A stretch of DNA of 64,000 bases from Blepharisma japonicum. Its lineage: Eukaryota; Ciliophora; Heterotrichea; Heterotrichida; Blepharismidae. The position numbers and the translations under genes are program-made. Below are positions 34,959 to 64,000 of the stretch, one piece after another. The notes beneath the pieces are model-generated. The model was not told the origin of the DNA. It made no database searches and worked only from the letters and a program-made list of their open reading frames with translations. Positions within the stretch are counted from its first letter, which is position 1; each line of letters starts with the position of its first letter. The DNA is taken from the NCBI GenBank assembly GCA_949751835.1, contig CATKHK010000010.1, positions 248,001 through 312,000 of the forward strand. Reading direction: 5' to 3'.

Positions 34959-36119
34959 ATGGTAATTATATAATCAAAATATATTCCATTATATTTTATA
35001 TTAGAAGCTTTGGTGAATTTCAAGCTCAAATTTTATTTATTCCTCACTATCAATTAATACCGATAAAACTTAAATTAAATTTTATTTACATTTTTATATA
35101 CTTTAATTGTCTTAAAATATCATAAAATATCAAAGCAATTATAGCTAAGTTTTTTTTTTAAATATCTTTACGGGCTATAAATGATTGAACTATTCTATAA
35201 AAAATTTAAATCATTACAGTTTAGACAAATTATGATTATTGATTTAAATTTAATAAGCCTGCAATTCTACTATCTTTCAAAGAATTTTCTATTCTACTTG
35301 AGTTTTCAAATAAATTTGAAGTCAGTAATAAAAATTTCAACTTTATTCTTTGTTAGTTCCTTAATGAATTAATTTTAAAATTGCAAATTTAATTTGAAAC
35401 TTATTAGGTATTACCTTTTTTGGAAATAATTTGAATAAGAATAAGCATTTAAATATTATAATGATAATATATTTTAAGAATTAGTATTTTACAGACTATG
35501 AGGCATCTTTTTGTTTAAAAAAATTTTTTAAACTCAATTTTTTGAGCGGAATATGAACAATTTAAGAAAGCTTAACTTAGTTTTAATCATGAGGCAATCT
35601 CTTAAAAATTAATTAATACTCCAAATAGATAATTTCATTGGTAACATTATTAAACTGCTGTAAATTAGATTTTAGAAGATAAATAAATGTGGTGTTAATA
35701 AAAATTATAGCAGGCTAATTAATTTAAGGCAAGATTTGTTTGATTTGAGTATACTTTATATTAAATATTTAAATAAATTCTAAAGAAAGAAGAATTTTAT
35801 AAATTCTTATGTAACTTTTTGTATGCTTTTGGCATAGAAATTTAATATTTTTTAATTTCATTAAAATTTCTCATAGTATTTTTAGATGTTAATAGCTTGA
35901 ATTTGATAAAATTCATAATAATTTTTTTCTGTAAAAGTAAATGGCTGATAAAATCTAAATTTTTGCAATTAATTTCTTTAAAGCTATTATACAAACTATA
36001 ATCATCTCTTCGCTCATTTCCTTGCTTCATAGCAAATAAATTCTTTAAATTTTATTATAAAATTTGAATTTGATATTAAATGCAAAACATAAGAAATCGT
36101 TATTATTTATTATAAGGTC
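34959..36119. other. Left edge of the repeat array, non-coding
   Basis: About 1.16 kb, very AT-rich. From about 35180 it becomes homologous to DNA elsewhere in the array: 35200-35250 (ATCATTACAGTTTAGACAAA) matches the 3' flanks of B1 (39540) and B2 (46330), and 35490-35960 matches 40660-41110 and 47450-47870. So this is an old copy of the B-A spacer from which gene B has been lost. No open gene. Confidence 0.6.
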
Positions 36120-37013
36120 CTAATTTTTTTGAAAAAAATCATCAGGATTCAAGTCATTGTAATCTATCAATCCATCACAAAACTCTTCAATTTTAATAAT
36201 ATCAGGATCTTTATCTTCAGAGCCCATATTATTTATAAGATCATCGTCTTTTTCAATTTTCATTTTTTTATTACTCGTCTTTTGAATACATTTCATTGAT
36301 TGTATTCCTCTGGTTCTTTTAGTATTTTGATTTTTAAGTTTTTCAATTTTATTTTTCTCTATAAAATTAAACATAGCTATTCGATCACCTCTATCTGCAT
36401 AAGGAATCGCATTTAATAAAATCATATCAACGTAATAGTTATAACTTATAAAGCAATAATCGTTTTCACTATCTTTGACTGCTTTCAGCATATTCAGTTT
36501 CTGATTAATCATTTTTAAATTTACTTCAAACCCACCTTCATATTTTTTAACTCAAGATTGGAAGCGTTTTTCAAAATCATTTATCTTTGCGACTAGATAC
36601 GTGTGATAAGGTTCAATTCTATCTCCGTTGAAGTACTGCTTTGCATTGTATGCTGAAAATAAAAGATGCTGCTCTGTATATGTATCAAAGTTCTTCCATA
36701 CTACATTTTCTAAGTAAATAGCTCATAGCGCAATCTCCAATTCATTGAGCATAAGTTCATCAATAATTCCTGATAAATTTATATATATAGGTTTTGCTTC
36801 GAAATCTCTAGAGATATTATTACCTTTTGTGAGACGCCTAAGCATTCGCTCTGCTGATTCTGGCCTTCCTGTAATTTCAAATTGGCTCTTTAAATAATAA
36901 TAAAGTTTTATCATGCTCTCTTCTCCTTGAAGTCTTTCAATTTCATTTGGTTCTTTTATTGCTGTTGCTAAAAGGTTATTATCGCTTGAAAAGCTTTTAA
37001 TGTTTTTTTCCAT
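36120..37013 (-). CDS. Array family protein, subfamily A, copy 1
   Basis: A 297-aa protein from ATG 37013 to TAG 36120, reading through TGA twice. Layout: short variable N-terminus; GRPESAERMLRRL near 49; core KPIYINLSGIIDELMLN to LEIALWAIYLENVVW around 75-108; LLFSAYNAK near 117; a helix INDFEKRFQSWVKKYE; LKMINQKLNMLK; YYVDMILLNAIPYADRG; then a Lys/Arg/Asn-rich tract and an acidic end, FCDGLIDYNDLNPDDF. Predicted mostly helical, with no signal peptide or membrane span. The basic tract could be a nuclear signal. No known family recognised. Confidence 0.75.
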
Positions 37014-39589
37014 AGTTCGAAACTCTTCTTTTTATATCTAATTGATTATTCAAATGGTTAAAATGGATACAATCAGATTTAAAGGCTACTGATATATATC
37101 TAAGAATGAAAAATTATAATATAAATAGTTATTTAAAGATTAGATTACTATTAGAATGATGAATCTATAGCACCAATTACCTTAAGCAATAAGAATTGTG
37201 TTAAGTAATAATTGATATGCTATAAATTGATGCAAAAAAAATCTTTGATAGCATCACTTGTTAATGTTATGATTTTTCAGTGACTTTTCTTTTCTTTGTT
37301 CATAGAATTATTGATCCTTTCTATGAAAAATAGACCATAGGGGTTTCAATTTTTGAATAATAAATTTTATTAGGAATAAAAATGAAGACTTAAGTGACAT
37401 CTTGTTTAAACATTCCAATTATTTTAATTCTAGAAAATTTAAACTTAAAATCTTCAATTTGATTATTAACTATTATGAACTGCTCTGATTTAATGATATT
37501 TGCTAGCCGAAATAAGATGTTTAGAAATTTAAATTAAATCTACAAAAATTTTATATCAAATATTTATTTATTAGCAAAAAAGGATAGCTTATAATTTGAT
37601 ATTTTAACGGAGATGACAATGAAATTAAATTGCAATAATAAAATTTATAAGAAATTATTAAAAAGTAATATCTTAAAAATCAAAAAAAATGTATTTTTCT
37701 TCATGCACGATAATTGATTGATCCTATTAAAATATTTTCATATACTTCCATATATACTCCCGATAAAATCTAAATTTTATTTATAAATTCAAAATTTGCT
37801 ACTCTATATTCAGGATGATTAGAATCAATTTGTAGATAAATTATTTAAATTCTGAGACTTTATTATTATGATTATTGTGCTCAATATTCTTAATTTTTTA
37901 AAATTCAATTATTTTTATTAAAAATCAGATTAGACGCTTTATTGCTTTTCTTTTATTATAAATTACAAAACTCTCTTTTTAATTGGTTATTTTTTTCTGA
38001 TAGTATCCATATAAATAAAATCATATGATCTTTAATTTCAAAAATATTTTTTTAAAAATTAGGTTGCTTTTAATATGTCTTTCTGTAGCATAACATTTTC
38101 AAAGTCTCCTTTAATTTATATTTCCTACTTATAAAAGGATTTTAATTAGCAATTTATAGATAAAATGATCATTAAATGCGTGCTAAATTTTAGAAAAATG
38201 ACTTATTGAAGGAAAAAGAATAAAGAAACATATATTTGAAAATTATAAGGACTAAATTATAGGGTAATTTGACTAGCAAATATGATTTTATCTAAATATT
38301 TAAAGAAATATAAAATCCCCAAAAACTAGGAAGATTTGGTCTAAAGAAATTAAGTTCTTTAACATTAAATATAACAGCAGATTATAGTTATGCTTTCAAA
38401 TAGCTTTTATACTTGCGCTATTTGAAAGAGTTCCTAAACTTTTTCAGACTTTGACTTAGAAGATAGGTCAAGTTAAGTTAAGATATCGCAAAAAACATTG
38501 GACATATTGATATGGTTACTAAAATATCTTGAGGCTCATCCAATACTCCAAACTCTAGGAAGATGGTGAAGAAGGATTTCCTTCTTGCCTAATGCAAGAA
38601 TTTGATGAGCATCTTAATAATATCTGCAGCCGTAATTTGCAGGTGTTGGTGTGGCTGTTTTCGAAATTTTTCTTTTTGGAATCAATCAAATATTGAAATA
38701 GTTTCTTTCAGTAGCTACAGAAATAATTTCTTCTTATTTCAGAGCTGAAGCTTTGTTTTTAGAATGTAGTCACCAGGTCTATAGAGAATTGCTAGGCACT
38801 TGTTCTTCAAGCACATAAATACAGCTAAAATCTATCCAAATTCATATTTAATCTTTTTCTATCCTATTTCGCCCTATCTTAAGGTTTGGCTTGCTACACT
38901 AAGCAGCTAGGTTGCAAGCTTGTTCATTTTTGTGCATAGCTTAATAAGTTATTTTTAAATTATTTCAGAAAATAAACTAAATAGATAGAAAGTAATAAAA
39001 ATCGAGCTTTTGTTCTAACATACGAGGCTTGGATAAGCTTTAGCTTATGCTGAGTTATAAAATTGTGATAGCTGCAAGCCAAATAATTTACAAGCTTAGC
39101 ATGTACTTTCAATTTTTATCAGGTAATTTGATATTCAACCTAAAATCTGATAAAGCAAGAAGAGGCATTTTCAAAGCTTCTTAGCTCAAGTATAAGTCAA
39201 AATCCTTCCTAGATGTAGAATAATTGTATAATAAAAAGATAATTAGGAAAAGATAAAAATATAAAACCAAGTAGAACTCTTAAAAATATTGAAATACGAA
39301 TTTTATTATTTAATCAAAAAATTCCAAAGCTTATTCCTTAGCTATCGCTTTTTACTAAACTTTCTTATAAACTAATTAAGATATATAATAAAAAATAAAA
39401 ACTTTTAATCTTCCACTTTATTAGATTATATTAATATGAAATTTCTTATAACCGAGATCGATTCCAGCAAAATTCCTATTAATTTAATTCCAACAGAAAT
39501 TCGAACAATTAAAGTTGAACTATATTAAAACCTATTTTAAATCATTCAGTTTAGACAAATAATGATTATTTTTTACTTTTGATAGCTCT
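37014..39589. other. 2.6-kb non-coding array spacer (left copy)
   Basis: AT-rich, no gene recognised. From about 37390 onward it is closely similar to 43865-46360, the matching spacer of the second repeat unit. It holds a conserved motif CTTCCATATATACTCCCGAT near 37745 and a less AT-rich block 38400-39200 with a hairpin-forming part at 38530-38630; see findings. Confidence 0.6.
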
Positions 39590-40489
39590 TTAAAAATCAT
39601 CAGGATTGAGATCATCGTTTTTATATAAGCCATCACAAAATTTCTCAATTTTTTCTATTTCAAGATCTTGCTTTACTTCTGTGATATCATCATTAAGCCC
39701 TACTATTTTATCAATTTTTTCAGCTTTTCTTATTTTTCTTGGCTCTGATACATATTTTATAGTCCTTGCCTTCTTAGCTTTTACCATTAGCTTTGGTATT
39801 TTGTGTACAATCTTTTGCTCTTCACTTTTATCTTGTTTAGCCTTTTGATTTTCCTTTACTTTCCTTTCTGCATACGGTGTTGCTGTTAGCAATATTGCGT
39901 CAACATAAAAATTATAGCTCAACTCTCCATAATCAATTTCTGCGGCTTTAAACTTTTTTAAGTAATTTAATTTGCTGTTAATCGCTTTAATCTCTATCTC
40001 AAATTGATTTTCATATTGTTGATGCCACAAATTAAAATTTTTTTTAAAATCTTCAATTTTTGCCATTAAATAAACTTTGATTGGTTTAATGTTTTTCCCA
40101 TTTAAATATAATTTTGCCTTGTATGCTGAAAATAACAAAACTTGCTCAGAGAAAGTATCAAAATTCTTCCAAACTATTTTTTCTAAATAAATTGCCCAGA
40201 GCGCTATTTCGATCTCACTCATCATAAGTTCGTCGATTATTCCTGATAAATTAACATAAAGCGGTTTCATTTGAAAGTCTCGGGAGATGCTTTTGCTCAT
40301 CATAATTCGTCTGAGCATTCTTTCTGTAAGCTCTGGTCTTCCAAGAAGCTTAAATTGGTGATTTATAGAGCTGTAGATTTTAAGTAAGCGAGCAATTTTA
40401 CTCTCTTTCGAAGAGTTTTCTATTCTGCTTGAGTTCTCATCTAAATCTGGAAGAGTGTGATAAACCGCTGAAGATTCCACCTTATTCAT
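39590..40489 (-). CDS. Array family protein, subfamily B, copy 1
   Basis: A 299-aa intact frame that uses only TGG for Trp. Same layout as subfamily A: GRPELTERMLRRIM near 56; core YVNLSGIIDELMMSEIEI then ALWAIYLEKIVW (about 80-112); VLLFSAYKAKLYLNG; LMAKIEDFKKNFNLW; KAINSKLNYLKK; YNFYVDAILLTATPYAER; a long Lys/Arg-rich stretch (residues 215-265, possible nuclear signal); acidic end FCDGLYKNDDLNPDDF. Its counterpart B2 differs by about 27 residues by eye, mostly near the N-terminus. Unknown function. Confidence 0.8.
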   Translation of the reverse strand: MNKVESSAVYHTLPDLDENSSRIENSSKESKIARLLKIYSSINHQFKLLGRPELTERMLRRIMMSKSISRDFQMKPLYVNLSGIIDELMMSEIEIALWAIYLEKIVWKNFDTFSEQVLLFSAYKAKLYLNGKNIKPIKVYLMAKIEDFKKNFNLWHQQYENQFEIEIKAINSKLNYLKKFKAAEIDYGELSYNFYVDAILLTATPYAERKVKENQKAKQDKSEEQKIVHKIPKLMVKAKKARTIKYVSEPRKIRKAEKIDKIVGLNDDITEVKQDLEIEKIEKFCDGLYKNDDLNPDDF

Positions 40490-41276
40490 CTTAATTTACA
40501 GAATGATTTAATTTATTCATTGTTTTAAAATGGTAATAAAATGAGCTTAATTTTGGAATTTATTAGACGTTATTTTCTTCTGGGCATAAGCTAGAAAGAA
40601 AGAATGAGGTATTTATATATATATATATTAATGTAAGACTCAGTGCTTTATATACTTTAGAGGTACCTTTATTGATATAAAAAAATTTTTGTTTTAAATT
40701 CAATTTTTTGAGTAGAATTAAAACTATTTAAGGAAGTCTAACCTGGTTCGAACCTTGAGAAAGATTTTCGTAACAGTCTTTTGAAAATTCATTCATTGTT
40801 CAAAATAGAAAAAAATTATGATTTTATATATCTACTGTAAATTAGATTTTAGAATATAAAAAATGTAGTTCAATTGAAATTAAAAATATACTCTAAAGAA
40901 AAAACGGAAGAACTTATAAATTCTTTTGTGATGTTTTATTCCCGTTTAGCATAAAAATCTAGGGATTTTTATTTAACAATTACTTTAAAAGTTCTTTAGG
41001 TTTCTTTTAGATGCTAATAACTTTAACTTGATAAAAAAAAAGAATAGCCTTTTTTTCTGTAAAAAAGCAAATGGCTAATGAAATCTAAATTCATTATAAT
41101 TAATTTATTTTATGTAAAAATTAAACTCTACATAAAGTATAATCATTTCTTAGCTTATTTTTTTATTTCATACTTTATCGGGCACTTTTTGATTTTTAAA
41201 ATTTTAGTTTGTATTTGATATTTAAAATAAAAGCCTAATATCAGAAAATCTTAATAAAGAAGAAATATCGTTTCAT
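40490..41276. other. B-A spacer (first unit)
   Basis: About 790 bp of AT-rich non-coding DNA, homologous to 35490-36119 and 47280-48036. Contains a TA run (about 40614-40628) and the motif ATGAAATCTAAATTCATT near 41080. Confidence 0.55.
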
Positions 41277-42178
41277 TTAATCTGAATATTTTTGTAGAAA
41301 TTCTTCAGGGTCCAAATCATTGTAATCTATCAATCCATTACAAAAATCTTCAATTTTTGCAATGTCAGGATCTTTATCTTCAGGATTCATAGCATTTATA
41401 ATACCATCGTCTTTTTCAATTTTCATTTTTTTTCATTCGCCTTTTGAATTCTTTTTGGTGATTTAAATTTTTGGGTTATATTACCATTTTCGTCTTTAAT
41501 TTCTTCGATTTTATTTTTCTCAACAGATTTTAGCATAGATAATTGATTGCTTTTAACTGTATATGGTGATGAAGTCATTAAAATAAGGTCAATGCAATAT
41601 TTATAATTCAAAAAGCAATAATCACTTCACTATCTTTGACTAATTTCAGCATGCTCAGTTTGATTAATCATTTTTAAATCTGCCTTAAATCCAAGCTCAT
41701 ATTTTTTAATTCAGGATTGGAAATTTTCTTCAAAATCATTTATCTTTGCAATGAGATACATTCGATATGGTTCAATGTTATTTCCATTAAAATATTGTTT
41801 TGCCTTGTATGCTGAAAATAAAAGAAGCTGCTCAGTATAAGTATCAAAGTTCTTTCATACTAAGCTTTCTAAGTAAATTTCTCACAACGCAATTTCTAAT
41901 TCATTTAACATAAGCTCATCGATAATTCCTGATAAATTTATATATAAAGGCCTTATCTGAAAGTCTTTTGGGATATCATCATTTTTTATGATGCGTCTAA
42001 GCACTCGCTCTGTCAATTCTGACCTTCCTAGCATCTTAAATTGGCTCTTTAATTCATGATAGTTCTTTATAGAGTTTACTCTGTTCCTATCTCCTTGTAT
42101 TCTTTCAGTTTCATTTGTTCTTTTAACTGATGATTGTAAAAGGTTGCTTGAGAAGCCTTTAATGCTCATTTCCATCAT
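41277..42178 (-). pseudogene. Array family subfamily A, copy 2 (decayed)
   Basis: Collinear with A3 (48037-48972), with the same start region, core (GIIDELMLNELEIALW with TGA), LLFSAYKAK and acidic end. A 2-nt loss in the run after ATGATTAATCAA and a 1-nt loss about 35 bp later shift the frame for a short stretch that contains a TAG; a third 1-nt loss in a poly-A run near 41430 shifts the last 50 codons. TAG is a stop in this code. It is a recently inactivated copy lying inside the left unit of the large duplication, whose right-hand twin A3 is intact. Confidence 0.8.
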
Positions 42179-43041
42179 TTGAAATTCTGCTTTATTATCT
42201 GATAATGATTAAAAATGGATAAAATAGATTCTATCAGGATTTAAGAGCAATCTACATAGTTTACCTAAGAATGAAAAAGAATGACATAAAATAGTCACAG
42301 AAGTTTAATTATCTGCTGATCACTATTAGAATGATTAATAAAGATGTGAAATGCTTTAAGCAATCAAAACGGTATTCAGCAATAATTTATATGAACTCAT
42401 AATTGATGTAAGTATAATCTTTAAATTTAAATTCCAATGATTTTGGGTTCTTATTGAAAATATCTTTTCTTTTGCTCATGATATTACTGGCTCTTTTCTC
42501 TTATAAGAGACTATCTATTTAATTTTCAAATAAACCATTTATTAGGCTTAAAAAATAAAAGGTTTAATTGACTTTTATCAAGCATTCTTAAATATGTTTT
42601 AATTCATGCAATTTTAGACTCAAAATCTTCATTTGATAATAAAATATTGATTTAACGATTTTTGTTAATAAAAATAGTGTTTTCAAAAAATTGTAAAAAT
42701 TTAAATCTGTTGGGGGTTTATTAACTAAACTATATTTATTTAGAAGTAAATTAGTATGTCAAATTTGATTTGCATTTTTTTGATTTTAATTAATATATAA
42801 ACTTAGATTATATTCACAATTGATTCCAATTTTTTGCAAAATGGGGGTTTAAAATTCCAAACAATAAAATTTAAATCAATTTTAAAAAAATAGTCAAGCA
42901 TTGGGTCTTAAGAATGGTGTAAAAACAATTATGCTATTTAAATATTTTAGAATTAATTAATCTGGCTCTTTACAATCCTTAATTTTATAAATTTTGAATA
43001 TTTAATTGTTTTACTGCTAAATTGCTAAGTGAATGTATTTA
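42179..43041. other. A-C spacer (first unit)
   Basis: About 860 bp, AT-rich, non-coding. 42180-42795 matches 48973-49560. About 130 bp (42797-42925) have no counterpart in the second unit, where about 1.17 kb of different DNA (49565-50735) lies instead. Homology resumes at about 42925. Confidence 0.55.
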
Positions 43042-43828
43042 TTAGTTTTTCTTTTCACCCTCTGCGATAAAACTCGATTTTTTCGGTTCTGTAGCTTCAA
43101 GCACAAATATCTGACCTCCAAGTTCAAAATAAGATTTTTCTTCAATTTGATTTTCTTCTATATGCTTCTCAATTTTGTACCTTTTCAAAGATATATCCCT
43201 TCCTAAGCAAATATGCTTATTCTTATTAAAATAAGTTGAAAGACCAGACAAAGATCGTGTACTTAAAGTAGAAAGTTGCTCTTTAGATGCATTCTCTATA
43301 TAGTTAATAAATGTCTTTTGCTTTTTCCTTTTAATAAATAGTGGTTTCTTTTTGGATCAGATTTTAACAGTATGATTTGGAAAACCTTTATCAATATAAA
43401 GGGCATTTCTAAGCTCATTGAATTTATCATTTATTTCATTAGGTGTGTACTTCAAGCTCTTTTTATTAGCTAAGGCCCATCTCAAATATTTATTTTTGAA
43501 TTCGGGCATCTTCTGACTAATAAATGAAAAATATGGTTCTATACTATCAACCAGCTCTATCTTAGCTTTGAAGGCAGAAAATATAAGTAACTCTCCATCA
43601 AATTTTTGCAATGCTTTAAATGGGAATCTTTCTAAATAAAGTACCCAGAGGGCTAATTCAAGTTCATTAAGCATTAAATCATTTACAATTTCGTTTAGTT
43701 CTTTTTGGATAGAATAGCTTTCGGCTCTTGAATAAGAAAATGCTTTTCGTATTAATCGACTTATCATTTGCTCTAAGACTTGAGTCCTTCCATTAATTTT
43801 GTATTGAGAATTAAGTTTTTCATAAGCA
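43042..43828 (-). pseudogene. Array family subfamily C, copy 1 (5'-truncated at duplication junction)
   Basis: An open frame (one TGA=Trp) matching C2 along its length: NGRTQVLEQMISRLI, core IVNDLMLNELELALWVLYLE, LLIFSAFKAKIELVD, a MPEFKNKYLRWALANKK helix, EINDKFNELRNALY, and a C-terminus ending in YFELGGQIFVLEA. The first 22 or so codons of C2, including its ATG, are missing: homology to C2 stops at about 43828 and DNA homologous to 37390 begins. An internal ATG at 43767 could still start a shorter protein of about 241 aa, so expression is not excluded. Confidence 0.75.
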
Positions 43829-46367
43829 AATATAACTTAAAAAAGTTGACCCTGAATCAGTTATGTGGCATTCTTGTCAAAACATTCTCAACTATTTTAA
43901 TTCGTGAAATTTAGACTCAAAACTTCAATTTGATTATTAACTATTATGAACTACTCTAATTTAATGATACTTGCTGGCCGAAAATAAGATGTTTAGAAAT
44001 TTAAATTAAATCTACATAATTTTTATATCAAGGATTTATTTATTAATTAAGTTTCGAAGCTCAAGCTTCATTTAATGTTTATAATCAATTTCTTTTAAAA
44101 TTTAATTTTAATTAATATAAATAAGAAATTTGTTCTTAACAAAGGAATAAAATATGCTTCAGAATAGCAAAAAGGATAGCTTATGATTTGATATTTTAAC
44201 GGGGATGGCAATCAAAAAATTTCTTGAATTAATTTAAATTGCAACAATAAAATTTATAAGAAATTATTAAAAAGTGATATTTTTAAAAATCAAAAAAATG
44301 TATTTTTCTTCATCAACAATAATCGATTAATATATTTAAAATATTTTCATACTTCCATATATACTCCCGATAAAATCTAAATTTTATTGATAAATTCAAA
44401 ATTTGCTGCTTTATAAATAGGATGATTAGAATCAATTTTTAGATAAATTATTTAAATTCTGAGACTTTATTATAATGGTTTATGTGCTCAATATTCTTAA
44501 TTTTTTAAAATTCAATTATTTTTTATTAAATATTTAGATTAGACGCTTTGCGACTTTTCTTTTATTATAAATTGCAAAACTCTCTTTTCAATTGGTTATT
44601 TTTTTTCTTCTGACAGTATCCATATAAATAAAATCATATGACTTTAATTTCAAAAATATTTTTTTTATAAATTAGGTTGTTTCTAATATATCATTCTTTA
44701 GGCATAATATTTTCAAAATATCCTTTAATTTATATTTCCTACTTATAAAAGGATTTTTAATAAGCAATTTATGGATAAAATGAGCACTAAATGCGTGCTA
44801 AATTTTAGAAAAATGACTTATTGAAGGAAAAAGAATAAAGAAGCATATATTTGAAAACTATAAGGACTAAATTATAGGGTAATATGACTAGCAAATATGG
44901 TTTATCTAAATATTTAAAGAAATATAAAATCCTCGAAAACTAGGAAGGTTTGGTCTAAAGAAGCTTAACTCCTTTAACATTAAATATAATAGCAGATTAT
45001 AGTTATGCTTTCAATTAGCTTTTTATACTTGTGCTATTTGAAAGAGCTCCTAAACTTTTTCTGACTTTGACTTAGAAGATAGACTAAGTTAAGTTTAGAT
45101 ATCGCAAAAGAATATTGGATATATTGAAATGGTTACTAAAATATCTTGAGGCTCATCCAATACTCCAAAACTCTAGGAAGATGGTGTAGAAGGATTTCCT
45201 TCTTGCCTAATGCAAGAATTTGATGAGCATCTTAATAATATCTGCAGCCGTAATTTGCAGGTGTTGGTGTGGCTATTTTCGAGATTTTTCTTTTTGGAAT
45301 CAATCAAATATTGAAATAATTTCTTAGTAGCTACAGAAATAATTTCTTCTTATTTCAATGCTGAAGCTAAGTTTTTAGAATGAAATGGTCAGGGTCTATA
45401 GAAAATGGGTGGGCACTTGCTCTTTAAGCATATAAATACAGCCAAAACTTATCAAAATTCATATGTAATCTTTTTCTATCCTATTTCGCTCTATCTTAAG
45501 GCTTGAAATGCTACGCTAAGCAGCTAGTTAGTAATTGTCTTCATTCTTGTACATGACCTAATAAGTTATTTTTAAACTATTTAAGAAAATAAAGCTAAAT
45601 AGATAGAAAGTAATAAAATATCGAGCTTTTGTTCTAACAGATGCAGCTTGGATAGGCTTTAGCTTATGCAGAATTATAAAACTGTGATAACTACAGCCAA
45701 AATAATTTACATACTTAGCATGTGTTTTCGGTTTTTATCAGGTAATTTGATATTCAACCTAAAATCTGATAAAGCAAGAAGAGGTGTTTTCAAAGTTTCT
45801 TAGCTCAAGAATAAGCCAAAATCCTTCCAGGATGTTGTATAATAATAAGATAATTAGGGGAAGATGCAAATATAAAGCCAAGCAGAATTCTTAAAAATAT
45901 TGAAATACGAATTTTATTATTTAACAAAAAATTCCAAAGCTTGTTTCTTAGTCTTTCAGTTTTAGCTCATATTTATTCCTTCTATTGCAGTTTATATTGA
46001 AACTCGCAAAATCATCAGAGCATTTGATTAAAAAATATTCTGATTATGCATTTCATGGGAGAAGCTTACTTTTTATCATAGAACTATAAAAGACCTCAAT
46101 ATCTGAAGCTTAATTAAATTGAGGATTTAGCTATCGCTTTTTACTAAACTTTCTTTTAAACTAATTAAGAAATATAATAAAAAATAAAAACTTTTAATCT
46201 TCCACTTTATTAGGTTGTTTTAATATGAAATTTCTTATATCCGAGATCGATTCCAGAAAAATTCCTATTAATTTAATTCCAACAGAAATCCGAACAATTA
46301 AAGTTGAACTATTCTAAAGCCTATTTTAAATCATGCAGTTTAGATAAATAGTGATTATTTTTTACTT
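43829..46367. other. 2.5-kb non-coding array spacer (right copy)
   Basis: Homologous to 37390-39589. Differences are small indels plus two larger ones: about 120 bp near 44040-44165 and 179 bp at 45952-46130, both present only here. No gene recognised. Confidence 0.6.
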
Positions 46368-47279
46368 TTAATAGCTGCTAAAAAAATCATCAGGATTGAA
46401 ATCATCGTTTTTATATAAGCCATCACAAAATTTCAAGATTTTTTCTATTTCAAGATCTTGCTTTACTTCTGTGATATCATCATTAGGCTCTACTATTTTA
46501 TCAATTTTTTCAGCCTTTCTTATTTTTCTTGGCTCTGATACATATTTTATAGTCCTTGCCTTCTTAGCTTTTACCATTAGCTTTGGTATTTTGTGTACAA
46601 TCTTTTGTTTTTCGCTTTTATCTTGTTTAGTCTTTTGAATTTCCTTTACTTTCCTTTCTGCATACGGTGTTGCTGTTAGCAATATTGCATCAACATAAAA
46701 ATTATAGCTCAACTCTCCATAATCAATTTCTGCATCTTTAAACTTTTTTAAGTCATTTAATTTGCTGTTAATCGCTTTAATCTCTATCTCAAATTGATTT
46801 TCATATTGTTGATGCCACAAATTAAAATTTTTTTGAAAATTTTCAATTTTTGCCATTAAATAAACTTTGATTGGTTTAATGTTATTCCCATTTAAATATA
46901 ATTTTGCCTTGTATGCTGAAAAGAGCAAAACTTGCTCAGAGAAAGTATCAAAATTCTTCCAAACTATTTTTTCTAAATAAATTGCCCAGAGCGCTATTTC
47001 GATCTCACTCATCATAAGTTCGTCGATTATTCCTGATAAATTAACATAAAGCCGTTTCATTTGAAACTCTCGGGTGATGCTTTTGCTCATCATAATTCGT
47101 CTGAGCATTCTTTCTGTAAGCTCTGGTCTTCCAAGTAATCTAAATTGGTGATTTATAGAGCTGTAGATTTTAAGTAAGCATCCAATTGTACTCTCTTTCG
47201 AAGAGTTTTCTATTCTGCTTGAATTTTCATATGAATCTGGAAGAGTGTGATAAATCGTTGAAAATCCCGCTGTATTCAT
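46368..47279 (-). CDS. Array family protein, subfamily B, copy 2
   Basis: A 303-aa intact frame, the twin of B1 in the second repeat unit. It has the same GRPELTERMLRRIM, core GIIDELMMSEIEIALWAIYL, VLLFSAYKAK, KAINSKLNDLKK, VDAILLTATPYAER, Lys/Arg-rich region and acidic end, with four extra C-terminal residues (FSSY). Differences from B1 cluster in the first 40 residues, while the core is almost unchanged, which suggests purifying selection on the core after duplication. Only TGG encodes Trp. Confidence 0.8.
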   Translation of the reverse strand: MNTAGFSTIYHTLPDSYENSSRIENSSKESTIGCLLKIYSSINHQFRLLGRPELTERMLRRIMMSKSITREFQMKRLYVNLSGIIDELMMSEIEIALWAIYLEKIVWKNFDTFSEQVLLFSAYKAKLYLNGNNIKPIKVYLMAKIENFQKNFNLWHQQYENQFEIEIKAINSKLNDLKKFKDAEIDYGELSYNFYVDAILLTATPYAERKVKEIQKTKQDKSEKQKIVHKIPKLMVKAKKARTIKYVSEPRKIRKAEKIDKIVEPNDDITEVKQDLEIEKILKFCDGLYKNDDFNPDDFFSSY

Positions 47280-48036
47280 CTTAATTTACCGAATTAATTA
47301 ATTTATTATTCTTTTAAAATGCTTATAAAATTAGCTTAATTTAGGAATTTATTAAACATTATTTTCTTCTGATCATAATTTAGAAAGAAAGAAAGAAAGA
47401 ATGGGTATTTTATATATTATAAAATAAGACCCAATGCTTTATATTCTTTAGAGGTACCTTCATTGATCTAAAAAAATTTTGTTTTAAATTCAATTTTTTT
47501 GAACAAATTAAAACAATTTAAGGAAGCCTAGTCTAGCTCTAGCCTTGAGAAAGATTTTTGTGGAATCTTTTGGAAATTCAGTTATAATTCCAAATAGAAA
47601 GAATTTTTGAATGATTACTAAATCTGCTGCAAATTAGATTTTATAATATAAAAAATGTATCTAATAAAATTTAAATCTTATAAATTCTTATGTAAATTTT
47701 TATTCGCTTTTAGCATAAAGATCTAGGGTTTTTTATTTAAGGATTGCTTTAAAAATTCTTTAGGCTTATTTTAGATGCTAATAGATTTAGCTTGATAAAA
47801 AATTAGAGTAGCCTTTTTTTCTGTAAAAAGCAAATGGCTGATGAAATCTAAATTCATTATGATTAATTTCTTTTATGTAAAAATTAAACTCTACACAAAG
47901 TATAATCATTTCTTTGCTTATTTTTTTATTTCATAAATTATCGGGCACTTTTTGACTTAAAATTTTAGTTTGCACTTGATATTTAAAATAAAAGCCTAAT
48001 ATCAGAAATCTTAATAAAGAAGAAATATCGTTTTAT
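47280..48036. other. B-A spacer (second unit)
   Basis: About 760 bp, AT-rich, homologous to 40490-41276. A GAAA repeat (47383-47400) lies upstream of B2. Contains GATGAAATCTAAATTCATT near 47840. Confidence 0.55.
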
Positions 48037-50857: not shown

Positions 50858-51700
50858 TTACTTTTTCTTTTCATCCTCGGCAATAAAACTCGTTTGTCTC
50901 AGCTCAGTAGCTTCAAGCACAAATATCTGACCTCCAAGTTCAAAATAAGATTTTTCTTCAATTTGATTTTCTTCTATATTCTTCTCAACTTTGTGCCTTT
51001 TCAAAGATATCGCGCTTCCTAAGCAAATAGGCTTATTCTTATTAAAATTATTTGAAAGACAGGGCAAAGATCGTGTATTTAAAGTAGGAAGTTGCTCTTT
51101 AGATGCATCCTCTAAATAGTTAATAAATGTCTTTTGCTTTTTCCCTTTAATAAATAATGGTTTCTTTTTGGAACAAATTTTATTAGTATGATTTGGAAAA
51201 CCTTCATCAATATAAAGGGCATTTCTAAGCTCATTGAATTTATCATTTATTTCATTAGGTGTGTACTCCAAGTTCTTTTTATTAGCTAAGACCCATCTTA
51301 AATATTTATTTTTGAATTCTGGCATCTTCTGATCAATAAATGAAAAATATGATTCTATATTATCAGCCAGCTCCATCTTAGCTTTGAAGGCAGAAAATAT
51401 AAGTAACTCTTTGTCAAATTTTTGCAATGCTTTAAATGGGATTTTTTCTAAATAAACTACCCAGAGGGCTAATTCAAGCTCATTAAGCATTAAATCATTA
51501 ACAATTTCGTTTAGTTCTTTTTGGATAGAATAGTTTTGGGCTCTTGAAGAAGAAAATATTTTTCATATTAATTGACTTATCATTTGCTCTAAGACCTGAG
51601 TCCTTCCATTAATTTTGTATTGAGAATTAAGTGTTTCATAGGTCATTTCTTCATTTGGTGCGTATATCTCTTGAGCTTTGTCTTTACTTGAAGTAACCAT
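50858..51700 (-). CDS. Array family protein, subfamily C, copy 2
   Basis: A 280-aa intact protein from ATG 51700, reading one TGA as Trp in SQLIWKIFSSS. Motifs: TLNSQYKINGRTQVLEQMI near 30, core IVNDLMLNELELALWVVYLE around 75, LLIFSAFKAKMELAD, MPEFKNKYLRWVLANKKN, NEINDKFNELRNALY; C-terminal 110 residues are Lys/Asn/Ser-rich, with a KRHKVEKN stretch and a short hydrophobic FELGGQIFVLEA near the end. It lacks the FCDGL acidic tail of A and B. This copy shows the 5' end that C1 lost. Confidence 0.78.
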
Positions 51701-52099
51701 TTTAATTAGATTTTTATAACCTCTGCATTTTTTTTAACATTATCACTAGAATGAACCGCTGAGCCTAAGATAAATCAAATATAATTAAATGCATACTAAA
51801 TTGGCTTCAGCAACGCTCTATATATAAATTTTAAGGAGTTAGAGGAGTTATCTTATTTATTAAAAACTAAAATAAGTTTAATATAGCTAAACTTGTTAAT
51901 TTCTGCTTTAAATTATTAGGCCTTATAAAATATAATCTTAGTCTATTTTTTATATTTAATATTTAAAATAATAAAATAAAAATCTCTTTATTTAATTTAT
52001 ATTTTCTTAGAAATATAATTTAATAATTTTCTTATTTCTATATACTCTTTTTTATGAGTATATTTAATTATTTTCTTAAATAAGATTTTGGTGAATTTT
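51701..52099. other. C-D spacer
   Basis: About 400 bp, AT-rich. Homologous to 58440-58770 (upstream side of D2) and 62560-62760; shared wording includes GCCCAAGATAAATGAAAT-like and TTGGCT(G/T)(A/C)AGCAAC-like segments. No gene. Confidence 0.5.
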
Positions 52100-52816
52100 T
52101 TTTGATAAAGCAAGCCAGAATCATTAACTCTGCTTTAGGAATTCTCCCTTCAATGCTTTATGATTTTTAAAAAGGCAGCTATATTTGCCATCCTTCAATT
52201 TCATCAATAATTTTTATGCATTTTTGATAGGTTGATTCGAAATCAAAAGTGCTCTGTTTTCTTTATTTTCATTTGATTCAGCTTTATTTTCCATGTAAAT
52301 TCAGAAGATCTCATAATGCATTCTGAGAAAAATGCAAATATTGTTATAGGCTATCTGAATTTGTTATTAATATCTGTATACTATCATCAAAGATTCTTTT
52401 TTCTTTTTATTTTTGGTATTATAATTTAAAATTTTGGGTATTTTTGTTATAGAAGAGCGAAAAATGCTCTCTATCATCCAGCTTTATTTTATTTAAATGC
52501 TGCAAAGGTTAAGATATCTTCATTGCAACCTTTTATCTTCTCTTTCATAATATATTTCTAAGCAAATAGTTTATAAGGCTAATTCGAGTAATCAAACATG
52601 AATTCGTCTACTATTTCACTTATGATCAAATGAAAGCATATTAACTAGCACCTGCAAGAACAACTTTCTTTATTAGCAGTATTAATATTATTCTATTTCT
52701 TTAATTTATCTTGAATTTTGTGTTAATTCTTTGAATTGCTCTAATGATGCCTCTTTGGTTTTTTATTTTATTAAATGAAATAATGCGATTTCTGAGCTCT
52801 ATTCTTCGATTATCAT
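52100..52816 (-). pseudogene. Array family subfamily D, copy 1 (decayed)
   Basis: Homologous to D2 and D3 along the full length: the start MIIEE is followed at once by TAG, and later blocks such as a FMFDYSN-like core, NAAK, and a QEFAFFSE-like helix can be followed only across several frame changes and stops. Order and orientation match D2 and D3. Clearly inactive; it is the most decayed recognisable copy in the array. Confidence 0.75.
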
Positions 52817-53732: not shown

Positions 53733-54603
53733 TTAATCCGAATATTTTTTTAGAAATTCTTCAGGGTCGAAGTCATTGCAATCTCCAATCCATCACAATA
53801 CTTTTCAATTTTTATAATGTCAGGATCTTTATCTTCAGAATCCATAGTATTTATTAGATCGTCATCTTTTTCAATTTTCATTTTCTTTTCAGTCATCTTT
53901 TTAATTCTTTTTGGAGATTTAAATTTTTGAGTTATATTATCATTTTCGTCTTTAATTTATTCGATTTTATTTTTATCAACAGATTTAGCATAGATAATTG
54001 ATCACTTTTAACTGTATATGGTGCTAAAGTCAATAAAATAAGGTCAATATAATAGTTATAATTCAAAAAGCAATAATCGTTTTCATTATCTTTGACTAAT
54101 TTCAGCATATTTAGTTTTTGATTAATCATTTTTAAATCTACTTTAAATCCAAGTTCATATTTTTTAATTCAGGATTGGAAACTTTCTTCAAAATCATTTA
54201 TCTTTGTAATGTGATACATTCGATATGGCTCAATATTTTTTCAATTAAAATATTTTTTTGCCTTATATGTGGGTTTATATATTATTCAAAAAAATACTAA
54301 GTAAATTGCTCATAGCGCGATCTCTAATTCATTTAACATAAGCTCATCGATAATTCCTGATAAATTTATATATAAAGGTCTTTTCTGAAAATCTTTAGGG
54401 ATATTATCATTTTTTGTGATATGTCTAAGCATTCGCTCAGTTAATTCGGACCTTCCTAACATCTTAAATTGGCCCATTAACTCATGATAAGTTTTTGTAA
54501 AGTTTATTCTATTCCCATCATATTGCATTATTGCAGTTTCATTTGGTCTTTGAGTTGATGACTCTAAAAGTGTATTGTTGCTTGAAACGCCTTTAAAGCT
54601 CAC
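53733..54603 (-). pseudogene. Array family subfamily A, copy 4 (decayed)
   Basis: The start MSFKGVSSNNTLLESST and the core (GIIDELMLNELEIALW) are intact, but the segment corresponding to ENLVWKNFDTYTEQLLLFS is replaced by a shorter unrelated stretch without loss of frame, removing the conserved LLFSAYKAK helix. The frame continues through INDFEESFQSWIKKYE and MINQKLNMLK, then shifts near 53985 and ends at a TAA; the C-terminal tail survives out of frame. Likely inactive. Confidence 0.75.
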
Positions 54604-56573
54604 TTCTATTTCTTTTGATATTTACTTTTATTATCTAATTAATTATTATGAAAAAAATGGATTTCATCAGGACGTAACTAATAATTTACTTAAGAATGAA
54701 AAAGAATGATATAAAATAGTTATAAAAAGGATAATTATTTGCAGATCAATATAAAAATGATGAATAAAAAACTTTAAAGTCTTTAAGAAATCAAAATGAT
54801 ATTAAGTAATAATCGAGGCATTCTATAATTTGATTTAAGTATATTTTTGAAATTTTCGATTTCTGATGATTTTAAGTTCTTAGAGTTCTTTTGCTCACAG
54901 TATTACTGGCTCTTTCTCCTATAAGAAGATTATTCGCTTAATTTTTCAAATAAACCATTTATTAGAAGTAACAAAATGAAAGATTTAGTGATGCTATTAC
55001 TGAACATTCTCAAATATGTTTTAATTCATGATATCTTAGATTAAAAAATTTTCAATTTGAAAATGAAATATTAATTTAGATACGTTGATTGACCAAAATT
55101 ACAAAAATTTAAATTAAAACTATAAAAATTTGAATATATTGAGGAATCATTATTTAAAGTTGAAAATTAATACTTATACCAAATTTAATAAAAAAATTTT
55201 AATTTTAATTGATGTATATGCAGAAATTTATTCTGCTGATTAGTTCTAATAAGGACATAAGAATTATTTTCATAATAGCAAAAAGGATGGATTTACAATT
55301 TGATTTTTAACAGGGAAGATAATTAAACTCTTTCTAATTATATTTTATCAGTAAAATTTATATTGAAATATTAAAAAATAGATGTTTCTTAAAAATCAAA
55401 AAATTATTAGTTCACGCACACTAAATTTATTTAATCTATATAAAAATATTCTCATATCTAAGTTGAAAATCTGCATAGATCGGCTGAAGAAACTTTTAAG
55501 CTTTTAATCTAAGTAAGCTTTTGTGAAATAAAGTCGCAAACTGAGAATTAAAAAGTTTTAGTTTTTAATATTTCTATGAAAGATCTTTTGGGATCTAAAA
55601 CTCAAAAATGCTTCATTATAATCACCAATGCTTTGAGCTATAGCTTCCATATATACTCCCGATGAAATCTAAAATTTTGATTATAAATTTAAAATTTCTT
55701 TGTCATAGACAATTAGAATTATTTTTTATTTATTCAAATTCTGATGATTTTATTATTATTGCTGATATGCTCAATATTCATCATTTTTAAGATTCAATCA
55801 TTTTTTATTTTAAATTGCTTAACTGGATGCTTTATCTCTCTTTCTAGAATTTTAATAAGTGAAAACACTTTTTCAATATATTGTGTCAATTTCTTATAAG
55901 AATAAAGCATATGACCGCTATAATTAACAATATTTTTTTCTTTAAATAAAATTGCTTCTAATTGACTTTCTATAGCAAGACATTCCCAAATATATCTCTT
56001 ATAAAATTATTATAATTAGCGATTTATAGAAATAGCTGTGCTAGAATTTGGAAATGATTTATTTTAAGGGAAAAAAAATTCGACTTAAATATAAAGAAAC
56101 TATATATATTAAATTCAAATAATTAAAGCGCTTATATAAATAATACCTCATCACATGTGAAATATTCTTTGAATGCAATTTGTGTAAGACTTCATTTCAT
56201 ATTTTGCACTTTTACTCTTGATTTAATAAAAAATTAAAAAAATTTGCTTTGTCTCTTAATTTGTAAACATTTTAAAAATCGTGTAAAAATTTCATTGTAA
56301 TAAAGAGTTAAATAGAAAATAAAAATTAAATTCATTACTGTTAACTTTTTTGAAGAAAATTCAAAAACTATATCAATTAATTGTTATTCATCTTATTTCT
56401 TTATTTTTTTAGTTTATTAAGCTATATTTAATAAAATATTAAATTCTCCAAAAATTTAGAAGCCTGTATTTTGAGCTTAACATCCAAAATTTTGATAATT
56501 AAAATCAAAATTTTAGACTAATAATTATAAAAAGAAATTAATTATAAAATCTTTACTTAGCCCTAATATTTTG
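54604..56573. other. 2-kb non-coding array spacer
   Basis: AT-rich with no gene. 54604-55200 resembles the upstream flanks of A2 and A3; 55460-56400 resembles 49570-50735. Contains the repeated CTTCCATATATACTCCCGAT motif near 55645. Confidence 0.55.
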
Positions 56574-57446
56574 CTAAAAATCATTAGGATCCAGGTCATT
56601 GCAGTCTACCAAGCCATCACAGAACATTTCAATTTTTGTCATATCAGGGTCATATTCTATAGAATTTGTGCTTATGGAAATACCATCTTTTTCAATTTTC
56701 TTCTTTTTCATGCCCACCGCTTCAGTCTTACTCATCTTTACTTTCATTGATGCCTTTTTTTTAGGTTTTTCATTTTTATACTCTTCATTTTTTCTTTTTA
56801 ATACAGCTATTTGATCTCCTCTATCCACGTAAGGAGCTGCAGCTAATAAAATCATGTCAACGTAATAGCTATAATCTAGCGCACAATAATCACTATTAGC
56901 ATCTTTTACTACTTTTAGGGTATTCAATTTTTCATTTATCATTTTTAGATTTACTTTAAATCCGCCCTCGTATTTTATAAGCCAAGAGTTGAAATTTTTA
57001 TCAAAATTTTTTATCTTTAATTGGAGATACGCGCGAAATGGTTCAATGCTATTTCCGTTGAAATATTGTTTTGCCTTATATGCTGAAAACAAAAGAAATT
57101 CCTCTGTATAAATATCAAGGTGTTTTCAGACTAAATTTTCTAAATAAATAGCCCATAAAGCAATCTCTAATTCATTGAGCATGAGCTCGTCAGTAATTCC
57201 TGATAAATTTATATATAAAGGTCTTACTTGGAAGTCCTTTGGAATCTGCTCACATTTTGTGATGCGCCGAATCATTCGCTCTGTTAATTCTGACCCCCCT
57301 AGTGACTTAAATTGGAGGTTCATTTCATAGTAGATTTTTAGAGAATTTATTGTGTTGCCTTCGAGTTGAGTTTTTTTCTTTTCTTTTGAGTCTTTAAGTA
57401 ATGATAATGAGGTCGGACTATTTTTTGAGAGGCTATTGTTGATCAT
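56574..57446 (-). CDS. Array family protein, subfamily A, copy 5
   Basis: A 290-aa intact protein, with one TGA=Trp (LENLVWKHLD) and TGG elsewhere, including the core LEIALWAIYLE. Motifs: GGSELTERMIRRI near 49, core INLSGITDELMLNELEIALW, LLFSAYKAKQYFNGNS, LKIKNFDKNFNSWLIKYE, LKMINEKLNTLK, YYVDMILLAAAPYVDRGD, then a Lys-rich run (KPKKKASMKVKMSK, GMKKKKIEKD; strong nuclear-signal character) and the acidic tail FCDGLVDCNDLDPNDF. It is the most divergent of the intact A copies, so an older duplicate. Confidence 0.78.
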
Positions 57447-58770: not shown

Positions 58771-59595
58771 TTAAAAACTACCCTTTAATATTGAATCCTC
58801 CCAATCTAAATAAGAGCTGGGCGAATTTTGATAAACCAATTCAGAATCATTATCTTCCGATGAGGACGTGCTCCTTTCAGTGCTTGATGATCTTCCAAAG
58901 GCAATTATATCTGCTCACTCTTCAATTTCATCATTGATTTTTATGTATTTTTTAGTTGAGTTTGATTGAAAATCGAAATTGCTCCTATTTTCATTTGATT
59001 TAGCTTCATTTTTGCAATTAAAGTCAGAAGATCTCATAATATATTCTGAGAAAAATGCAAAATTTATCGAACTTAGCTCTTTGTCTAGATTAGCTAAATT
59101 TGTAAGCTCTCTGAATTTGTTATTAATATCTGCCATACTGGTATCAAAGATCTTTTTGTTCTTTTGAGTTCATTTCTGGTATTTTAATTTAAAATTTGGG
59201 TATTTTTGAGATAAATTAGCGAAAAAAGGTTCTGCATTACCCAGCTCTGACTTTACTTTAAACGCTGCAAAGTTTAAGATATCATTATTGCAACATTTTT
59301 CCCTCTTTCATGATATCCTTTCTAAGTAAATAGTTCATAATGCAAATTCGAGTTCATCAAGCATGAATTCGTCTACTATTTCACTTATGATTAAATGAAG
59401 AGGCCTATTAGTACCTGCAGGAACAATTTTCTTTATTAGCAGTCTTAGTATCATTCTATCTATTAGTTTGTTTCTTTTATTTATCTTGGATTCTGCACTT
59501 AATTCTTTGAATTCCTCTAATAATGCTACTTTGGCTTTGTGAATTCTTATTGAATGAAATAGTGTGACTTCTGAGTTTGATTCTTCGATTTCCAT
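58771..59595 (-). CDS. Array family protein, subfamily D, copy 2
   Basis: A 274-aa intact protein reading four TGA codons as Trp. Motifs: KRNKLIDRMILRLLIKKIV near 39, core HLIISEIVDEFMLDELEFAL then WTIYLERISW, a shorter ILNFAAFKVKSELGN in place of LLFSAYKAK, SQKYPNFKLKYQKW, DINNKFRELTNLANLD, FAFFSEYIMRSSDF. The C-terminus is acidic and Ser-rich (SSSTERSTSSEDNDSE) and ends SYLDWEDSILKGSF. Same fold pattern as A-C, but with N- and C-termini of its own. Function unknown. Confidence 0.75.
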
Positions 59596-59779
59596 ATATT
59601 AAAATTACTGCAGAATTTTTACTTATTAAGTTGCATTTTGATATAGCAAATAAATTATTTGAAAATTTTGATTTTAAAATTTTTATAAAATTTGCATTTG
59701 ATATTTAAACAAAATTAAACATAAATTAGAAAACATTTAATAAAGAACGAATTAATCGTTATATTTCATCCTAATATTT

Positions 59780-60673
59780 TTAAAAAAACTCTTCAGGATT
59801 TAAGTCATTGCAATCTATCAACCCATCACAAAATTCCTCAATTTTTGCAATATTAGGATCTTTATCTTCAAGATCTATATTATTTATAAGATCGTCGTCT
59901 TTTTCGATCTTCATTTTTTTTTTACAAATTTTTTGAACTCTTTTCATTGGTTTATTGTTTTTGGTTGTTTTAGTATTTTCATCTTCAAGTTTTTCAATTT
60001 TATTTTTCTGCATAAATTTTAACTTAGCTATTTGATCGTCTGTCTTTGCATAAGGAATTGCAGTTAATAAAATCATATCAACATAATAATTATAATTCAA
60101 AAAGCTATAATCACTTTCATTATCTTTGATTACTTTCAGGAGATTCAGCTTTTGATTAATCATTTTTAAATCTACTTCAAACTCACCTTCATATTTTTTA
60201 ACTCAGGATTGGAAAATTACTTCAAAATCGTTTATCTTTGCTATGAGATACTTGCGATAAATTTCAATGTTATTTCCATTGAAGTATTGCTTTGCCTTAT
60301 ATGCTGAAAATAAAAGAACCCTCTCTGTATAGGTATCAAAGTTTTTCCATACTAAGTTTTCTAAGTAGATTGCTCAAAGAGCAATCTCCAATTCATTTAG
60401 CATAAGTTCATCAATAATTCCTGATAAGTTTATATATAAAGGCCTTGTTTGAAAATCTTTTGGGATATGATCAAATTTTATTATATGCCTAAGCATTCGC
60501 TCTGTTAATTCTGGCCTTCCTATCATTTTAAATTGTCTCTTTAAGTAATAATAATGTTTTATAGAATTTTTTATGCTGCCTTCTCCTTGTAGTCTTTCAG
60601 CTTCATTTGGTCCTCCAATTGCTGATGCAAAAAGGCTATTATCGTTTGAAACGCTTTTAGAGCTTATTTCCAT
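59780..60673 (-). CDS. Array family protein, subfamily A, copy 6
   Basis: A 297-aa intact protein, with TGA=Trp in the core and in FQSWVKKYEG. Motifs: GRPELTERMLRHI near 52, core LYINLSGIIDELMLNELEIA, VLLFSAYKAKQYFNGNN, LKMINQKLNLLK, YYVDMILLTAIPYAKTDD, a basic stretch with KKKMKIEKDDD and the tail FCDGLIDCNDLNPEEFF. Closest to A1 among the intact copies. Only 184 bp separate its stop from the D2 start downstream, the tightest spacing in the array. Confidence 0.78.
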
Positions 60674-61806: not shown

Positions 61807-62553
61807 TTATTTTTTTCTTTGTTCGATAGCTTCATGAATAAAAACCTGACCACAATTATTTTTTTCTTCAAATTTATTTGCTTTTATATCTTGCCCAACT
61901 TTATGTCTTTTCAATGATGTGATATTTTCTAAGTCTTCTTTCATAAGATATTCCAAGGGCTCATTATTACTAAAATAATTTCATCAATTAGGTGGAGTTG
62001 CTATACTTGAAGGAGGGAGTGGCTCTTTAGACTCATAATCTATATTAAAATTATTTGGAAAATCTTCATCAATATTCGTAAGCTCATTGAATTTATCATT
62101 TATTTCATTAGGTGTATACTCCAAGGTCTCTTTATTTGCTAAGGTTCATTTCAAATATTTATTTTTGAATTCGGGCACTCTCCGAGTCAAAAATGAAAAA
62201 TATGGCTGTATATCATCAACGAGCTCTGACTTAGCTTTGAATGCTGAAAATATAATTAATTTTTCGTTAGCTTTTTTAAGTTTTTTAAATGGGAATTTTG
62301 CTAAATAAAGTGCCCAAAGGGATAGCTCAAGCTCATTTAGCATTAAATCGTTTACTATTCTGTTCAAATTATTTCGGATAGAATAGCTTTCGGATCTTGA
62401 AGAAGTAATCATTTTTAATGATATCTGATTTATCATTCGATCTAAAACCTGGGTCCTCCCATTAATTTTGTACTCAGAATTCAACTTTTCATAAGTAATG
62501 TCTTCTTTTGGTTTGCAAATCTCTTGAATTTTGTCTTCGCTTTGGTCAGCCAT
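61807..62553 (-). CDS. Array family protein, subfamily C, copy 3
   Basis: A 248-aa intact protein, reading three TGA codons as Trp (one in YLKWTLANKE and a tandem pair in PPNWWNYF). Motifs: KLNSEYKINGRTQVLDRMI near 24, core RIVNDLMLNELELSLWALYL, LIIFSAFKAKSELVD, VPEFKNKYLKW, NEINDKFNELTN. The C-terminal part is shorter than in C2 and keeps KRHKVGQD and a GQVFIHEA ending. The start MADQSEDKIQEICKP differs from C2, so this is an older duplicate. Confidence 0.75.
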
Positions 62554-63035: not shown

Positions 63036-63815
63036 TTACGAAAAAAAATGCGATTTTCATCCATGTTTTAGAGTAATACGAGGCCTAAGAGTCATTTTTG
63101 TTCTATCATTTGATTGAAATACGTGACACCCAGTTATATCTATTCCCTCTTCAATTTCATTATTGATTTTTATGTATTTTTTGCCTAAGCTTGCTCTATT
63201 TTCTTCATTCTTATTTGATTTAGCTTCATTCTTGTAAGTAAATTTAGAAGATTTCATAATGTACTCTGAGAAAAATGCAAAATTTATAGCACTCAGCTCG
63301 TTGTCTAGATTAGCTATATTTGTAAGCTCTTTGAATTTATTATTAACATCTGCTATACTAGCATCAAAGATACTTTTATTCTTTTGAGTTCATTTCTGGT
63401 ATTTTAACTTAAAAATTGGGTATTTTTGAGATAAATAAATGAAAAAAGGTTGCGCATCATCCAGCTCTGATTTTACTCTAAACGCTGCAAAATTTAATAT
63501 ATCATTATTGCAACCTTTTTCCCTCTTTCATGATATCCTTTCTAAGTAAATGGTTCATAAGGCAAACTCGAGTTCATTAAACATGAATTCGTCCACTATT
63601 TCGCTTATAATCAAATGAAGAGGCTTATTAATTCCTGCAGGAACAATTTTCTTTATTAATAATCTTAGTATCATTGTATTGAGAAGCTCATTTCTTTTAT
63701 TTTTCTTGAACTTTGTATATAATTCTTTATATTGCTCTAATAATGCCTCTTTAGCTTTTTGAGTGTTTATTGAATGAAATGATGTAGTTTTTAAACTTGG
63801 TTCTTCGATTTTCAT
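63036..63815 (-). CDS. Array family protein, subfamily D, copy 3
   Basis: A 259-aa intact protein, reading TGA as Trp four times; the last TGA (63057-63059) extends the protein by nine residues to TAA at 63036. Motifs: KRNELLNTMILRLLIKKIV near 39, core LIISEIVDEFMFNELEFALW, ILNFAAFRVKSELDD, SQKYPIFKLKYQKW, DVNNKFKELTNIANLD, FAFFSEYIMKSSKF. The C-terminus is basic (RTKMTLRPRITLKHG), unlike the acidic one of D2. Twin of D2 with similar N-terminus. Confidence 0.75.
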
Positions 63816-64000
63816 ATATTAAAATTATTGCAGAATTTATGGCTGAGCAAAATGACTAAAAAATAAGAGTCAACTCAAAAAGGCTATTGTATTTTATCGA
63901 CGTCACCCGAAATTTTAGCTCATTATAATTAATGATTATATTGTTTTGCATGATAGAATATTGAATTCATCAAAAGTAATTTTTTGGACGATATTTTTCT
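63816..64000. other. Upstream flank of D3
   Basis: 185 bp of AT-rich DNA. 63950-64000 (GAATTCATCAAAAGTAATTT) matches 52980-53020 upstream of D1, just before the GC-richer island begins there. The window ends before it can be seen whether the island follows here too. Confidence 0.5.

Follow-up and report, generated by a model that had tools for sequence, protein, structure and literature searches.

A tandem gene array in Blepharisma japonicum belongs to a large heterotrich protein family with a predicted cyclin fold

A 64,000-nucleotide stretch of the Blepharisma japonicum genome (contig CATKHK010000010.1, here C10, positions 248001–312000; hereafter the window, whose own numbering is used unless C10 is given) carries in its right-hand part a tandem array of related genes, and raises the question of what these genes encode and how so many came to lie side by side. 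An initial annotation had described a protein family that resembled no known one and had proposed a role in self-recognition, mating type or conflict. Our analysis, in which the whole 45.2 Mb assembly (224 contigs) was searched, points to a different answer. The array is, we consider with reasonable though not full confidence, part of a large and fast-evolving heterotrich family with a single-domain cyclin fold predicted from structure models, which would dock on a cyclin-dependent kinase (CDK) through an invariant lysine and in which tandem duplication and decay shape the array. Cyclins are the activators of the kinases that drive cell division. That the family exists is established, and its identity as an atypical cyclin is likely on the basis of the models. 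It is described here as working like an atypical cyclin and is not placed within the cyclin family itself, since no Pfam cyclin profile detects it and a counterpart of Glu286 of cyclin B1 is not evident.

Predicted fold and conserved residues

Each protein consists of a helical core of about 130–150 residues, flanked on both sides by divergent tails that are mostly disordered. Identification from sequence alone was tried with Pfam, with PDB sequences and by profile–profile comparison, all without a significant answer, and Pfam scans of seven open reading frames (ORFs) of the window, 44 family members and 10 homologues gave no credible match. The earlier statement that no known family fits therefore holds at the level of sequence, but not at the level of fold, where the cyclin box is the best match of two models. 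In both AlphaFold models, the second of which was made without array sequences, cyclin-box proteins ranked at the top of the structural comparison, namely p25 (the CDK5 activator), cyclin Y and Pho80, followed by Speedy and cyclins B, T and H. The array model (AlphaFold2, residues 31–180 of the copy at 59780–60673, with a predicted local distance difference test score of 73–95 per block of ten) had p25 as its top match with a Z score of 10.1, and archaeal TFIIB appeared in lower rows of the matches of the second model. Among the viral structures of BFVD nothing was found at E < 0.001, and none of the best 50 of 111 matches was named a cyclin. A cyclin-box fold, which PMC6971155 gives as a cyclin criterion, is thus predicted for the family.

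In the numbering of the 59.8 kb copy, Lys128 and Glu96 are present in all 69 aligned sequences, Trp100 in 65 of 69, Asp or Glu105 in 57 of 69 and Asn173 in 65 of 68. The same paper names Lys257 and Glu286 of cyclin B1 as the defining pair. Lys146 of protein P0008 falls on cyclin B1 residue 257 in two rows of the structural matches and on residue 256 in a third, as read from the ends of the aligned ranges under a gapless assumption, which places the invariant lysine of the family within one residue of the CDK-binding Lys257. For Glu286 two registers are possible, holding either Trp157 (62 of 68) or Phe/Tyr/Leu176 (66 of 67), and within columns 140 to 182 acidic residues are most frequent in column 171 (74%). 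If the predicted fold is correct, the core would dock on a CDK in the manner of Pho80, cyclin Y and p25, through the invariant lysine, and the kinase partner may be of the Pho85/CDK5/CDK16 kind, because the proteins that match best in structure are partners of those kinases. The tails, which change fast, might set location or substrate choice, and unequal tandem duplication and decay of the array would then yield alternative regulatory subunits.

A Pfam cyclin box, PF00134 or PF08613, is listed among the cyclin criteria in PMC6971155. No Pfam cyclin family was reported for the seven window ORFs and the 10 homologues, nor among 25 of the 28 families for the 44 members, and the p35/p25 and Speedy/RINGO families were likewise not among these 25. 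In the genome, PF00134 and PF08613 matched 86 distinct loci at E ≤ 0.01 (85 of them over the cut-off), none of which overlapped the array or the 43 dispersed family loci described below, and the positive controls L051, L059 and L061 matched both profiles. Profile comparison with 20 of the Pho80-type cyclins of the genome was not significant over all columns, with a score of 16.5 (17.8 with array sequences only and 15.2 with dispersed ones only) against column shuffles that reached 17.2. Restricted to the core, the comparison was borderline, with E values of 0.04–0.06 for three core definitions and 0.16 for the narrowest, and the three borderline comparisons aligned helices α1 to α3 in the expected order with the lysine one column off. 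Five of the Pho80-type cyclins (L059, L060, L061, L062 and L064) have long N-terminal extensions that share a SAM-like-looking region; Pfam lists only cyclin domains in L059 and L061.

Likeness to the Pho80/Pcl group (PF08613) and to cyclin Y lies in the single cyclin box and in their coming first or nearly first among the structural matches of both models. The family also has an E-x-N at the start of a late helix (Glu or Asp in 50 of 68 sequences, Asn in 65 of 68), and a comparable E-[ILM]-N stands in 11 of 20 Pho80-type cyclins retrieved from the genome. Unlike Pho80 and cyclin Y, however, it is undetected by PF08613 or PF00134, has a near-invariant Trp in a helix of its own, and shows in neither register a conserved acidic residue where the Glu would lie. 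The CDK5 activator p25/p35, an animal neuronal protein, gave the highest Z score with the array model and likewise activates a CDK although its sequence does not resemble cyclins significantly, but was not among the 25 Pfam families mentioned above for the 44 members. To Speedy/RINGO no sequence link was seen, and the structural score was lower. The diatom-specific cyclins described in PMC2872877 are similarly a lineage-specific expansion of divergent cyclins, but came from a cyclin-profile screen, whereas the Blepharisma family is invisible to Pfam cyclin profiles. In a table of the same paper Paramecium tetraurelia has 144 matches to the cyclin profile and Tetrahymena has 29, and therefore expanded ciliate cyclin sets were already known; the 86 loci found here fall between these two numbers. 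In the titles and abstract openings of open-access papers on Blepharisma, heterotrichs and ciliate cyclins we found no description of a cyclin-fold family invisible to Pfam.

Organization and growth of the array

A tblastn search with 54 family ORFs, read with TGA as Trp, against the window and 20 kb of sequence beyond its end located 14 copies inside the window (36117–63815), all on the minus strand, which bore out the copy number and common orientation claimed in the initial annotation. A fifteenth copy, also on the minus strand and split over two frames, lies just beyond the window end (C10:312158–313169). Ten of the 14 are intact, running from ATG to TAA or TAG without inner TAA or TAG when TGA is read as Trp, three are broken and one is start-less. 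The ten open copies had been reported correctly, but they measure 248–303 codons from ATG to stop, the upper value of 311 given earlier being a stop-to-stop length. Similarly, repeated DNA does begin at about 35185, close to the previously proposed array start of 35180, but the first gene begins at 36120. TGA, for which the initial annotation had named no code, encodes Trp in the array genes, because ten copies stay open with Trp at conserved columns, where TGA and TGG swap from copy to copy; the standard and the Tetrahymena-type codes were thereby ruled out. The Blepharisma stoltei genome paper also states the TGA = Trp code (PMC9942806).

Four branches were recovered as first described, with six (A), two (B), three (C) and three (D) copies. 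Branch A comprises intact copies at 36120–37013 (297 aa), 48037–48939 (300 aa), 56574–57446 (290 aa) and 59780–60673 (297 aa; the modelled copy), together with two pseudogenes related to the 48.0 kb copy, one frameshifted at 41280–42178 (∼91% DNA identity) and one frameshifted and with an inner deletion at 53736–54609. Both branch B copies, at 39590–40489 (299 aa) and 46368–47279 (303 aa), are intact, the latter being a recent duplicate of the former (dS 0.077). Branch C has intact copies at 50858–51700 (280 aa) and 61807–62553 (248 aa), and the start-less copy at 43042–43767, which encodes 241 aa when read from an internal ATG; in frame it still resembles the 50.9 kb copy for about 20 codons upstream of that ATG, and the two have no true start region in common. 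Branch D consists of intact copies at 58771–59595 (274 aa) and 63036–63815 (259 aa), the last in the window before the fifteenth copy, and a remnant at 52077–52816, a three-frame match with many stops that was placed by its best matches, outside the tree. Similarity between copies goes beyond chance, since even for broken copies the match to another copy has E values of 9e-130 (41.3 kb) and 6e-19 (52.1 kb) and ratios of nonsynonymous to synonymous divergence (dN/dS; see below) are low.

Self-comparison of the 33–72 kb region (blastn, E 1e-6, low-complexity filter on) revealed 53 repeat pairs in the array region, all of them direct and none inverted. Two adjacent blocks, 37.57–39.34 kb and 39.34–42.80 kb (1.8 and 3.5 kb), correspond to 44.17–45.95 kb (89% identity) and 46.13–49.57 kb (90%), respectively, and are one segmental tandem duplication with its left half at 37572–42799 and its right half at 44165–49565. 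This duplication, together with the mixture of intact, truncated and decayed copies, supports the birth-and-death pattern suggested previously. The smaller block is an apparently non-coding spacer (37572–39341 and 44165–45951), weaker versions of which occur at 49780–50291, 55276–55457 and 55639–56030; no stop-to-stop frame of more than 100 codons was present across the four spacer stretches examined, and a genome search with the 1.8-kb block, the only spacer block searched, found copies inside the array only. No RNA gene reached the gathering score at 33000–64000.

The dispersed family and selection on its members

The array is real but is not the whole family. Five single-protein searches of the genome (E ≤ 0.001), whose counts are lower bounds, detected 43 or more dispersed loci, distributed over 33 contigs, which with the 15 array copies gives at least 58. 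Outside this genome, relatives were found in B. stoltei, in one Stentor protein (P0005) and among environmental proteins, by a protein search that requires shared 5-residue words and so has a limited reach beyond the genus. With the 39.6 kb copy as query for expression, four proteins and no transcript record were returned; P0020, a peptide from an MMETSP transcript, coincides exactly with a 107-residue segment of L025, one of the dispersed members.

A tree of 69 sequences (13 window ORFs, one just beyond the window, 39 dispersed loci and 16 proteins) was calculated, leaving out the fragments P0006, P0015, P0019, P0020 and P0021, one piece of the fifteenth copy, the 52.1 kb remnant and four later loci. 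Branches A and B were joined with a support of 0.998 and C and D with 0.979, the whole array clade (17 tips) had 0.823, and the fifteenth copy fell inside C and D, its precise position being unsupported (0.274). B. stoltei P0003 grouped with branch B (0.981) and P0002 with the 56.6 kb copy (0.967), and therefore both lineages are older than the species split. That both proteins have a longest contig of 913,618 bases suggests that they lie on one contig.

Pairwise dN/dS ratios were calculated by the method of Nei and Gojobori with code 4 for 11 ORFs (55 pairs), of which the 23 pairs with dN below 0.8 are reported, 22 of them finite. Over the whole gene the ratio was 0.11–0.66 in 21 of the 22 pairs and above 1 in none, values that carry no significance test and in distant pairs involve saturated dS; the outlier, at 0.93, was the pair of the 43.0 and 50.9 kb copies, one of which is start-less. 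In 15 of 16 pairs finite for both regions the core had a lower ratio than the tails, e.g. 0.24 versus 0.74 for the 58.8 and 63.0 kb copies, the sole exception being again the 43.0/50.9 kb pair. Purifying selection on most copy pairs is thus supported, in line with the selection on protein anticipated from the sequence.

Alternative readings and significance

A cyclin fold could also serve without CDK binding, in a nuclear scaffold or DNA-associated factor comparable with the cyclin-fold TFIIB. The defining Glu has no evident counterpart, archaeal TFIIB is found in the lower rows for the second model, basic patches are common among family sequences, and an AT-hook-like N-terminal RGRP motif is present in seven of the 69 (L010, L012, L020, L021, P0007, P0009 and P0010). 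That motif, however, occurs in none of the 14 array sequences screened, CDK activators top both models, and the lysine is invariant; we consider a scaffold unlikely. Convergence of an unrelated all-helical fold on the cyclin box seems more doubtful still, as cyclin-fold proteins came first by a margin in both models and the invariant lysine lies within one residue of its cyclin counterpart. A mobile element or its decayed remains would suit the multiple and partly decayed copies and the low G+C content of the region (23–27%, against 30–38% to the left), but all repeat pairs are direct, the spacer block searched has no match in the genome outside the array, no transposase or integrase family came up when the copies were scanned with Pfam, and most copy pairs show purifying selection, which leaves this explanation hardly credible.

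The proposed self-recognition, mating-type or conflict cluster agrees with a tandem array in which intact and decayed copies are mixed, and with its divergence: the nearest B. stoltei proteins are 67–74% identical to array copies (59.8 kb copy/P0001 and, at 74%, 39.6 kb copy/P0003), as against 78–91% for two dispersed members, one of which has in P0008 an orthologue with 91% identity over the whole protein. A simple hydropathy screen (19-residue stretch, threshold 1.6) was used as a test for membrane or secreted proteins. Ten of the 69 sequences exceeded 1.6, namely nine of the 55 non-array sequences, a point for such a role, and the frameshifted 53.9 kb piece (1.74), but no intact array copy showed a membrane-like stretch or secretion signal; in 12 of the 13 window ORFs the N-terminal 12-residue hydropathy was at most 0.67 and the 19-residue maximum at most 1.39, and the fifteenth copy reached 1.31. 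Gamone 1 is a Blepharisma mating pheromone described as secreted. Proteins of its type carry an N-terminal signal, which the same screen did not reveal in any intact array copy. As whole-gene dN/dS stays under 0.7 in all but one of 22 pairs and exceeds 1 in none, members are spread over at least 33 contigs and the predicted fold belongs to kinase activators that act inside the cell, the role is unsupported, and we regard it as very improbable.

The reading as a CDK-docking cyclin fold can be extended, with a rather low probability, to the possibility that a distinct class of CDK activators arose in heterotrichs, one no closer to textbook cyclins than Speedy and p35 are, with at least 58 loci beside 86 recognisable cyclin loci; the array, duplicating locally, might then be a source of new kinase-targeting subunits for the unusual nuclear and developmental cycles of these ciliates, and some relatives might take the kinase to DNA through their AT-hooks. 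Should the family indeed consist of atypical cyclins, Pfam-based cyclin counts would miss a large share of the cyclin-fold repertoire of these giant unicellular organisms (58 loci on top of 86), a further CDK activator beside p35 and Speedy would have been hidden from cyclin sequence searches, and the conserved dispersed and fast-turning array members would form a natural paralogue series for the evolution of CDK partner and substrate choice. Regeneration in the heterotrich Stentor is reported to use cell-cycle genes including cyclins (PMC9371601), and the family would therefore be a concrete candidate set there.

Two features of the tails are added here. A C-terminal motif, [IL][DEN]x[FI]C, occurs in 14 of the 69 sequences (in branches A and B, L009, L010, L013, L018, L028, L032 and three B. 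stoltei proteins), with a near-match outside these hits in the 46.4 kb copy; it is preserved far from the core within otherwise divergent tails and is possibly a docking peptide. The member at L031:886–2148 has as its C-terminal tail a tandem repeat, rich in N-S-T-F-S-S-F-Q-S-P, that was not observed in open reading frames of its close paralogues L027 and L033.
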